From the NCBI GenBank assembly GCA_020736575.1, contig JAGPYM010000006.1:1488001-1552000 (forward strand): DNA of 64,000 bases, in the 5' to 3' direction. Shown piece by piece: positions 36,069 through 41,000 of the stretch. The notes beneath the pieces were generated by a model. It ran no database searches and was not told the origin of the DNA. It saw only the letters and a list, made by a program, of their open reading frames with translations. The position numbers were made by a program, and so were the translations under genes. Position 1 is the stretch's first letter. The number at the start of each line of letters is the position of its first letter. Source of the stretch: Thelonectria olida (taxonomy: Eukaryota > Ascomycota > Sordariomycetes > Hypocreales > Nectriaceae).

Positions 36069-37328
36069 ATGTCTCTGTAAGACCCCGCATCCATCCGCTC
36101 AAACGCCAATCATCTCTAACACGATACCGCCCAAGCCCGCTCAAGGTCAAGATTGCTCTGCGAGACCATTGGGAAAAGGCAGACTCTCCCCTGCAAAAGT
36201 CCATCAAGGAAGTCAAAGATCTCTTGGGCCTCGATGTCTACTGCGAACCGCAATGGCCCATCATCATTTCCGATTTGGAGAAGGTGTACGATGACAAGGG
36301 ACAGCTCACGCAGGCAGTCATCGGGCTTCTTCACACGTGGTTTGTGACCATCGCCGAGCTCATGGATGATGACAGCCACGAGGCATGGTCTGAGAAGGTG
36401 GTTGAGAAGATCAGGGAGTTCACATCCAGGCTGAAGCTCAATGTGGAGGTGAGTTCGCGCAAGGAGGGACCCTGGACGCATCAATCGGAGCCGTTGCCTA
36501 GAGCGGATGTCGCGGGCGATCCCGAGGCGAGGAGGGATTGTGGAGAAGGCCAACGCCCACTCAGTTCACAGAACTAACATGGAGTCTCCTAGGTCGGTGA
36601 GGGCGAAAGAGCCGTGACGGAATGGTCCGACAGCCGTCAAGGCTTTGTGGTGTCTGTCCCCAAGGTCCACATGTACCAACCGGCCCAGTTTGCCCAAGTG
36701 TTCATGGAGCAGCTTCTCGAATGCTTCGACGAGAAGAAACAACAGCAATCGGAGTCCCTACCCATTCATTCGACGACCGGAGATGAATGGGCTGATGTTG
36801 GTATTGATGAGACCCAAGAGAGGTCTACAAAGACGGCTGAATCGACAGCGTTGGCACCAGCCGTCGAGTTTCTTCCAGACCCCAACAACCTTCCGAAGCC
36901 CGGGACACTGCTGCTCAAGCCCCCGTACCATCTTCTCATCAACTCATATGGCGGCAATAAGCTTGAGATCCAATGCTCCCACAGCGCGACCCTTGATGTC
37001 CTAAGCCAGTACCTGAAGAGATGGTGCAAGATCAACCCGAACCTGACGACCAAGGTGAGTTTGCTCGTTGGTTGCCCGGTTTTGATAGGGACGTATTGCT
37101 AACGATGGCCAGCCACCCGCCGTAGACATTGAACTCAATCAGGGCACTTGTGGTTTCGGGCTCACGTATGATACGCTGACACTCTCCTGTGAGAACCGAT
37201 ACGGTAGTCGGTTCACGGTTTCTCCAACATTGATACTGCACTTGGTTGAAGGGGTGCTGGGCTATGAGAGGGTGTTTAGCGACGCTTCGTCCTGGCATTA
37301 CCGCCGCGATGCCCCATTCAAGCAGTGA
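36069..37328 (+). CDS. Protein of unknown function (332 residues)
   Basis: Four exons: 36069-36076, 36136-36448, 36593-37054, 37113-37328, with introns of 59, 144 and 58 bp. The first coding exon is only 8 bp (Met-Ser and two bases of Leu). It is supported by the GTAAGA donor, a CTAAC branch site and an AG that restores the frame. The soluble chain has an N-terminal helical part (KIALRDHWEKADSPLQKSIKEVKDLLGL, HTWFVTIAELMDD) and a C-terminal beta-rich part (PPYHLLINSYGGNKLEIQCSHS, GTCGFGLTYDTLTLS, FTVSPTLILHLVEGVLGYERV). No known motif is recognised. An alternative upstream start at 35909 would add a leader that is not protein-like and skip the first intron; I consider it less likely. The 144-bp intron is the longest in the window. 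Confidence 0.65.
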
Positions 37329-37510: not shown

Positions 37511-37515
37511 AAAAA
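37511..37515 (-). terminator. RNA polymerase III terminator of tRNA-Cys
   Basis: On the minus strand the tRNA discriminator U is followed by TTC and then five T residues. A run of four or more T is the standard Pol III stop signal. Confidence 0.8.
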
Positions 37516-37518
37516 GAA

Positions 37519-37647
37519 AGGACCGAGCGTGGATCGAACACGCGGCCTAGAGATCTGCAATCTCTCGCTGTTTGTTGTGTGAGCATGTGTGCATGAGAAT
37601 GTGAGACATGAGGGAGTCACTAACCTCTACCGCTGAGCTATCGATCC
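37519..37647 (-). tRNA. tRNA-Cys(GCA) interrupted in the D arm by a 57-bp insert
   Basis: The minus strand folds into a full cloverleaf once 37568-37624 is removed. The 7-bp acceptor stem GGATCGA/TCGGTCC has one U-G pair. The D arm is GCTC-AGCGGTA-GAG+C, the anticodon arm AGAGA-TTGCAGA-TCTCT (anticodon GCA at 37556-37558), the variable loop 5 nt, and the T arm GCGTG-TTCGATC-CACGC. The discriminator is U73, the identity base of tRNA-Cys. The A box (TAGCTCAGCGG) and B box (GTTCGATCC) are intact and a T5 terminator follows, so Pol III signals are complete. Mature length would be 71 nt. The insert splits the D stem between standard positions 24 and 25, not the canonical 37/38 intron site, and no cloverleaf with a canonical intron can be drawn. 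It could be an unusual intron-bearing gene or a tRNA gene broken by insertion. It lies between convergent protein genes, in sense with the ABC transporter transcript. Confidence 0.85.
37568..37624 (-). other. 57-bp GT..AG insert within tRNA-Cys
   Basis: Read on the minus strand the insert starts GTTAGT and ends AAACAG. The donor is identical to those of two spliceosomal introns in this window (31873 in the FAD monooxygenase gene, 60502 in the permease gene). The size equals the local intron norm, and GCTCAC, close to the fungal branch site, has its A 13 nt before the 3' end. The interior repeats CTCATG/CTCACA-like hexamers. An AG at both edges makes the exact boundary ambiguous by 2 nt. Confidence 0.7.
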
Positions 37648-38089: not shown

Positions 38090-41000
38090 TCATTCATGCC
38101 TAGACAACACGGCTTGAACAATGTCCTCCCTCCTCACCCCGCCGCGATCACACATCCCCCTGAAAATGCCATTCAGGTCAAACACCTCCAAAGGCGCACC
38201 CAACTCGGCAATGCGCCCTTGATCCATGACACAAATGCGGTCGTATCCGATAATGGTTCTAAGACGATGCGCAATACAAAGAAGCGTCTTGCCCTTGAAT
38301 CCTTCCATCATGGTCTGCTGGATCTTGAGGTCCGTTGCAAAATCCACCGAACTCGTTGCTTCATCGCAGATGATGATGCGCGAACCTCGAACAAGCGCGC
38401 GGGCTAGAGCCATTAATTGACGTTGACCGAGGGAGAAGTTGAGTCCCTCTTCTTGAACCACGCTCTCGAGACCGATTCGGCCACTGCTGCGTTTGTTCCC
38501 CGTCGAGGCTTCTTCGTCAGCGAGGCCAGCTTGGCGAAGCGCCGACCACATTTCAAGATCCGTGTGTTCATTGAACGGATCTAGGTTGGCTCTTACTGTG
38601 CCTTTGAACAGCGTAGGGTCTTGTGGAATGATGGCCATTCGGGATCGGACATCGTGTAAGCCGATACGGCTGATGTCCACGCCATCAATCGTGATGGAAC
38701 CACCAGAAACCTCGATGATTCGGAAGAGCGTAGCGATAATGCTGGATTTGCCTGCACCTGTGCGCCCGACAATACCAATTCTCTCCCCAGGCGCCACATG
38801 CATCGTGAGACCCTTGAGGACCAGAGGCAGACCTGCGCGATAGCGCATTTGGACGTCATCAAAGACAATCTCGCCATGCTCAGGCCATTCGGACCTTACT
38901 GCAGCAGTCTCGATTTGCAGGGGCGCTTCTTCTTCGAGACCAGTGCCGTAATGATGAATCCTCTCTGTGCTGTTCATGTTGTTTTCCACCTCGGCAAGCT
39001 GTCGAACGGCGAACTGGAACATGCCCACAATGCCCAAGATGTACGAGAGCACCACGCCTCCGATGCTGGGATTGACGTTGAACCGGGACGTCACAACTAG
39101 CATGCTGATGATGAAGATCATCATGTTTCCAATGGCGTCGAGTCTGATGCTCAGCCATCGCTGGTTCGCAAAGGTCAGGAAGTAGGCGCTGTCCATGTCA
39201 TCAATCGTGTTCCGGATCATCTTGGAGAAATGGCCTTGTAGCCCGTAAGCGCGGATCGTCGCCGTTCCATATACGGCTTCGCTGAACTTTGCAAAGACGG
39301 TTGAGCGCAAAACTGACTCGTGTCGCTTGATCTCGATGGCGGATCTCCTGTAATAGCTGGCCGCGAAAAGAAACACGACAACCAGCGGTGCCAGGGCGAT
39401 GGCGAAGTAATAGTAGTAGGAGATGATGAGGACGAAAACAGACACAATCATGCCCAAGGTCATGTAATACATCCGAATCGCGTCTGTGAGGTCATTGTCC
39501 ATGACATCAATGTCCTTGGACAGTCTGTTGGTGATGCGACCGAGAGGCGTGGTGTCAAAGAAGGACATTGGTGCTCGCAGCACTTTGACCATGGCTCGAT
39601 ACAGCATAACTTTGCTAGCCTGCGTTCCAAGAATGGAGATAGAGACTGAAAATAGGAATAGAAAGATGACTTGCAAGACGCCCAACCCAGCATACACGCC
39701 AATCTAGAGTCCAACGTTAGCACATCCTCCAGCTGAAAGCAGACATGACACTCACATAGAAGTCGGCGTCATAGTCCCAGTTCTGCGCCGTCCACCAGGA
39801 TAGCCATAAACTGGTGAGGATATTTGTCGCCTGGGCCAAAACCAGCAGGACAAAGACCAGAGGGGCGATCATGATAGAGCCTGCTGCCAGGAGGTATGCC
39901 GAGTACACCCTCCACGACACGCTCCTCACGGCGCGGTCTTCAGCCTGCATCAGATCGGCCCCTTGCTTATCCTCTCCTCCTTCTTTATTCTCCTCTTTGA
40001 CATCCGTTTGTGCCCTGGCGTCCTCTGTTCCCTGGTTCTTGTCCTCCTCTTCATCAACAGACGTGGACGTCATGAGCTTCGCGAACTCGTCGTTCTGGGC
40101 CATCAAACCGTCAAAAGTCCCGAATGCTTCCACCCTCCCATCGCGCATCCACACCACCTGGTCACAGCGATGCAAGACGTGCAGCTGGTGAGTGGCGAGA
40201 ATGCGACATTTCCCCGCGAGCAGATCACACACAGCTCGCTCCATAATGTGACGGCCAACATGAGCGTCCACAGCAGACAGCGGATCGTCCATGAGGATGA
40301 AGTCGGCTTCACGGCAGTAAATGGCGCGAGCCACATTGATGCGCTGCTTTTGCCCTCCCGACACGGTGATGCCGCGCTCCCCAATCTCCGTCATGTCGCC
40401 GTCGGGGAGGGCTGCCAGGTCCGGCCTCAATGCGCAGGCATCTAATACATGCCCGTACCAGTCGGCGTCAAAGGGCTTTCCGAAGACGATGTTTTCGCGG
40501 ACTGTCGCATTTTGGATCCATGCATACTGCGGACAGAAAGCCCTCGACTTGCAAGCCAGGGTCACTTGGCCATGTGTCTTGCGCATGTTGCCTGCCAACG
40601 CCTCTAACAGTGACGTCTTTCCGGAGCCAACGGTGCCAATGACGGCGACGAGTTCGCCACGACCCAACTTGAGATTTATGTTGCGCAGCTGGAAAGGCTC
40701 TGCCACCGTAGAGGCGCTGCTACTCCGTCTCGGTGAGGACTCCTCAGCAGTGTTGGCGTTGGCAGACGAATTGGTGCGCTCCCACGTGAAGGAGGCATCT
40801 TCGATGTTGACTGCATGCTCATTCTTGTCATCATACTCAATCTCTTCGGAAGCTTCTTCTGCTAACAAGAACTCTTGGATGCGCTTGACGGAAACATAGC
40901 CATCGATGATCTGACCAATGACCAAGGGAAGGAAGTTGAGTGGCATCCGTAAACCGTTGAACATGGCCAGCGAGGAAAAGATGGGGGCTGGCGTGAGCAC

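Follow-up and report, generated by a model that had tools for sequence, protein, structure and literature searches.

Introns of tRNA and of mRNA are believed to be processed by distinct machines, and the canonical intron of nuclear tRNA genes is located at position 37/38. Ectopic tRNA introns outside the anticodon loop, the D arm included, are described for archaea, Cyanidioschyzon merolae and the nucleomorph of Guillardia theta, with tRNA-Cys among the Guillardia cases (PMC4090602). In the passages of the same article on ectopic introns, those of archaea and C. merolae are tied to a tRNA endonuclease that cuts bulge-helix-bulge (BHB) structures, and the Guillardia inserts measure 3-24 nt with a splicing mode given as not known (PMC4090602). 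The tRNA-Cys introns of rice are placed at 38/39, and not in the D arm, in the portion of the rice study dealing with them (PMC5492330).

Some fungal U6 snRNA genes, such as that of Schizosaccharomyces pombe, hold a short GT-AG intron with a branch site inside a small RNA made by Pol III, between two exons of a few dozen nucleotides. The B box of the S. pombe U6 gene lies within the intron, and one study reportedly found repeated gain of U6 introns in fungi. The fission yeast intron is described as located near catalytic nucleotides and is thought to come from reverse splicing. Transcription of U6 by Pol III is documented (PMC10484740). Normal spliceosomal introns are also present in another structured small RNA gene of fungi, that of U3 snoRNA, of which some genomes hold copies both with and without intron, and as of 2017, in the part of that article concerned, U3 and U6 alone among small structured RNAs were known for frequent interruption by an intron (PMC5832005). 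The openly licensed literature, as searched, yielded no description of a nuclear tRNA gene with a spliceosomal intron; in the locus described here the intron would be of a familiar kind and its host gene of a new one.

The locus is a tRNA-Cys(GCA) gene on the minus strand at 37647-37519 of the window, that is, of the whole 64,000-nt stretch that was analysed, and its features are shown in Table 1. The initial annotation had described a D stem split at 24/25 by 57 bp with GTTAGT and CAG ends, a branch-like GCTCAC and the size of local introns, and all of this was confirmed once exons and insert had been located. In the joined form every cloverleaf pair is standard, including those of the anticodon stem AGAGA/TCTCT, the T stem GCGTG/CACGC and the D stem. 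The A and B boxes, the stems, U73 and the T5 run are intact as had been claimed, but the acceptor stem, though complete, is not the perfect one of that description, having one G-U pair (T4-G69). A sequence query of the genome matched the 3′ exon at 100% over query positions 22-71. AG is found at both ends of the insert, which can thus be slid by 1 or 2 nt, and one of the three placements gives GT..AG. TAGCTCAGCGG and GTTCGATCC, which we take to be the A and B boxes, are 90 bp apart instead of the normal 33, that is, 57 bp further than in the other copies; in natural yeast genes this distance reaches about 90 bp.

Table 1. Coordinates of the split tRNA-Cys(GCA) gene in the window and of the interrupted U6 gene in the same genome; splice signals are given with their scores and with the share of predicted local introns scoring the same or lower.
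Feature	Position	Strand	Description
5′ exon, tRNA-Cys(GCA) positions 1-24	37625..37647	-	23 nt; acceptor 5′ strand and D arm up to G24
Insert, U2-type spliceosomal-intron-like, GTTAGT...AACAG	37568..37624	-	57 nt
3′ exon, tRNA-Cys(GCA), C25 to U73	37519..37567	-	49 nt; anticodon arm, T arm, acceptor 3′ strand
5′ splice-site-like GTTAGT	37619..37624	-	7.58 bits; 18/49
Branch-site-like GCTCAC	37579..37584	-	branch A at 37580; 5.24 bits, weak; 5/49
3′ splice site (putative) CAG	37568..37570	-	last 5 nt 5.50 bits; 37/49
A box (presumed) TAGCTCAGCGG	37630..37640	-	same sequence as in copy C133b
B box (presumed) GTTCGATCC	37531..37539	-	same sequence in all four tRNA-Cys copies
Pol III terminator T5	37511..37515	-	context TTCTTTTTGC; T5 run then G, as downstream of most tRNA genes
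TATA-like TTTTATAAA	37696..37704	-	about 50 nt upstream of the tRNA
U6 snRNA with insert	C122:777140-777309 (L074 1501-1670)	-	only match over cut-off among 47 of 2,792 candidates scored

Like the canonical introns, the insert interrupts a nuclear tRNA gene, but it is located in the D stem, carries splice-site signals and lacks a strict BHB. With the ectopic introns it shares the position outside the anticodon loop; in contrast to those of archaea and C. merolae its signals are spliceosomal, and the same signals and its 57 nt set it apart from the Guillardia inserts. GT..AG ends, 5′ splice site and length are all those of a U2-type spliceosomal intron, and without the insert the gene has the complete cloverleaf, A box, B box and T-run terminator of a functional nuclear tRNA gene.

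The local intron grammar was taken from genes predicted on 264 kb of the same contig (the window and 200 kb more). Introns in the gene model had to have GT and AG ends and be 40-140 long, and their score was raised by G at +5, a CTNAY motif and a pyrimidine at -3. An earlier gene model with 57 introns, 17 of them kept, placed the splice sites poorly and was replaced. The 61 introns of the later model have a median length of 60; GTTAGT starts just one of them, and T at +3 is found in 8. Of the 61, 12 were dropped for a weak gene score or short flanking exons, and the other 49 supplied score matrices for three signals, namely 5′ site, branch site and 3′ end. The insert reached 18.31 bits, a score that 11 of the 49 predicted local introns do not exceed. 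When 300,000 57-mers drawn at random from the genome were put in place of the insert, 2,534 gave GT..AG and 9 reached the score of the insert, and among 200,000 letter shuffles of the insert the numbers were 424 and 2, slide placements being allowed in both controls. The score test was made after an intron had been proposed, the introns compared are predicted only, and the matrix positions are partly built in because the gene model rewarded G at +5, CTNAY and the pyrimidine at -3; despite this the gap between the insert and the random controls is large.

By these scores the insert is intron-like beyond chance, with an ordinary 5′ site and 3′ end and a weak branch site. GCTCAC differs from the RCTRAC of local introns; among 59 CTNAY motifs of predicted introns, one has C at that position. 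From the branch A 12 nt remain to the insert end. The G content of the insert is 12%, compared with 22% in local introns, and the sequence before the branch site is 68% pyrimidine against a median of 56%, being as rich in 5 of 48 local introns. A genome search that skips simple repeats turned up no further copy of the insert, and a mobile source was rejected on this ground.

The genome comprises 52.5 Mb in 165 contigs. Upstream of the tRNA, and on the same strand, an ABC-C transporter ORF ends at 38090; the initial annotation had put the locus in sense about 440 nt past this stop, and the distance was found to be 442 nt. Among at least 120 relatives of the transporter the organism named was Pseudogymnoascus, at 71-72% identity, which suggests a filamentous ascomycete. 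On the other side, a plus-strand gene predicted with a weak score has its end at 37328, and the split tRNA gene therefore lies in an intergenic stretch with its own Pol III signals. Of 59 tRNA genes read from this genome, 47 have a run of T5 and then G in the 40 nt downstream, compared with 0.8% of 20,000 random places, and 15 have a TATA-like site at -70 to -20, compared with 6.1% of 20,000. The CAA element also present at the split gene is weak evidence, as it was found at 50 of the 59 genes and at 45% of places at random. The terminator and the TATA-like element of the split gene thus resemble those of other tRNA genes. Across the 54 tRNA loci the T5-G downstream often reads TTCTTTTTGC. By eye, several Asp and Lys-like tRNA genes lack a T5 within 25 nt and have leaders resembling hairpins.

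The same genome was searched for U6 and U3. One U6 match was over the Rfam cut-off, covering 170 bases for a model of 105 positions, and two further matches were far below it (47 of 2,792 candidates scored). The match contains a 71-nt insert between ..AGAAGAT and TAGCATGG.. that starts with GTCAGT, ends with CACAG and has a GCTAAC branch motif 10 nt before its end, the distance of 11 from branch A being comparable to that in the tRNA. It scored 21.25 bits, which 26 of the 49 predicted local introns do not exceed, and carries the B-box-like GTTCGAACC. Exon sizes are alike, with 41 and 58 nt in U6 compared with 23 nt plus leader and 49 nt plus trailer in the tRNA. Three U3 matches of 270, 269 and 267 bases span nearly the 274 positions of the model and hence hold no intron-sized insert (24 of 724 candidates scored), and U3 is, furthermore, not a tRNA. 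Because U6 is made by Pol III, is essential and has no intronless copy among the matches listed (47 of 2,792 candidates scored), a Pol III transcript is very probably a substrate of the spliceosome in this fungus. The U6 insert, as read from its sequence, is a precedent in the same genome for the tRNA insert. U6 is, however, itself part of the spliceosome, a connection that a tRNA lacks, and the two exons of a tRNA have to fold with each other.

On this basis the tRNA-Cys(GCA) gene has, with somewhat better than even probability, gained a U2-type spliceosomal intron that is probably still spliced. That a nuclear tRNA made by Pol III should need the major spliceosome and not the tRNA endonuclease, in a gene that was colonised and still works and in a lineage whose U6 has a similar intron, stands at about an even chance. 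The intron would have been gained in the 3′ strand of the D stem; transcription of the split gene by Pol III would start from the A and B boxes and stop at the T5 terminator, the 57 nt would be taken out by the major spliceosome, and the ends would then be trimmed by RNase P and RNase Z to give a normal tRNA-Cys, which would presumably be used. Alternatively, the transcript could come from Pol II read-through of the upstream ABC transporter gene as suggested earlier. The gene order permits it, but the split gene is flanked much as other tRNA genes are, and the U6 precedent makes Pol III the simpler source. Of the capture of an intron by the tRNA gene, proposed in the initial annotation, the spliceosomal type is supported by the score test and by U6, and its removal is what we infer from the sequence. 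If true, Pol III genes besides U6 can acquire spliceosomal introns, a tRNA matured by the spliceosome would cross the line between the two machines as an unusual example of mRNA splicing machinery at work on a tRNA, and the locus would offer a compact case in which to study how introns are gained.

Elsewhere in the genome the search revealed three intact tRNA-Cys(GCA) genes, two of them in tandem on contig C133 and one on C76. This answers the count for which the initial annotation had called, and several intact copies were also one part of what it held would mark the split gene as a simple inactivated copy; that part holds. A pattern requiring a G found 2 places, both C133 copies being without that G, and all four copies were found by a separate sequence query. 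The tandem pair (C133:1030555-1030787) is 91 bp apart, so that the terminator of the first gene falls within the upstream region of the second, and the third intact gene (C76:437388-437459) has an extra T in the D loop. When the four copies were aligned, the split one in joined form, their stems differed at three base pairs, with both partners of each pair altered; the one private difference of the split copy was a C in the variable loop. The paired stem changes and the single private change fit a copy that was once under selection.

These sister genes make the split copy dispensable, and it is possible, although less probable than continued splicing, that an insertion, of a captured intron or by another event, inactivated one of the four genes and that its exons are too young to have decayed. 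According to the section of Yoshihisa 2014 (PMC4090602) that treats them, short insertions in the D or T arm of eukaryotic tRNA genes mostly affect a single gene among many synonymous ones, and the genes concerned are supposed to be pseudogenes. The Rfam tRNA score of the unspliced gene is likewise low, 22.8 bits for a cut-off of 29, with the 5′ half of the match drawn from the insert. Exons and terminator are intact, which speaks against a dead copy, but one private substitution gives little information on the age of the insert. A random insert with a full set of splice signals is, on the other hand, not expected (9/300,000). The weak branch site would fit an intron that is being lost or was never well used. 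It is because of the pseudogene precedent, the three intact sisters and this weak branch site that splicing is placed at little above even and a dead copy given a substantial minor share.

A random or repeat-derived insertion that happens to start with GT and end with AG is improbable. The insert is by eye rich in words like CTCATG and CTCACA, its branch site is weak, and GT..AG alone came up in 2,534 of the 300,000 random placements; yet the full score came up in 9 only, the length is near the median of predicted local introns, and the genome search, skipping simple repeats, gave no related copy.

Removal by the tRNA splicing endonuclease and ligase, as for the ectopic introns of the D arm known in archaea and C. 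merolae (PMC4090602, PMC3978253), is more improbable still. An unusual endonuclease had been considered in the initial annotation and gained no support, as the strict 3-4-3 BHB fits none of the three placements, with at most two of four central pairs formed and the flanking helices absent, and as the insert is at 24/25 and not at 37/38. The enzyme with its accessory subunits is also considered unlikely to act on precursors disrupted outside 37/38 in the relevant part of PMC3978253. ARAGORN run with introns, which it places in the anticodon loop only, does offer a tRNA-Cys(GCA) whose intron is 56 nt long and lies at 33/34, again not at 37/38. This alternative was set aside because it has a T.T mismatch in the anticodon stem, an imperfect D stem and an anticodon arm unlike that of the three intact copies. 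In the free fold (-37.3 kcal/mol) the precursor is without cloverleaf, and the joined form likewise, whereas a fold constrained to form the tRNA arms around the insert gave -29.1 kcal/mol. Since the arms can form around it, structure neither demands nor forbids splicing.

An assembly or sequencing artefact is the least credible explanation, nothing having been found in its favour in the one assembly examined, where a single-copy insert sits within an otherwise intact tRNA on a 2.25 Mb contig with predicted genes on both sides.

Further cases were sought in a set of at least 61 tRNA places (63 of 1,484 candidates scored), of which 59 were examined in 54 loci and the other two separately. No insert in the D arm was found among the 61, a set that could hardly show one because it was chosen by full-length match. 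A 22-base pattern for the junction matched this locus with 0 mismatches and 3 places with 3, the backward control giving 16, and by this search there is no second case for this type of A box.

If spliceosomal introns do interrupt tRNA genes, such genes would escape standard annotation and might be commoner in fungi. The present gene points to this blind spot, being below the Rfam cut-off and given a misplaced intron by ARAGORN when introns are allowed. The search for noncanonical introns in tRNAscan-SE 2.0 is described for the archaeal mode in the corresponding section of its paper (PMC8450103). ARAGORN without introns gave no tRNA in the whole window, and on the sequence minus the insert it returned a clean tRNA-Cys(GCA).
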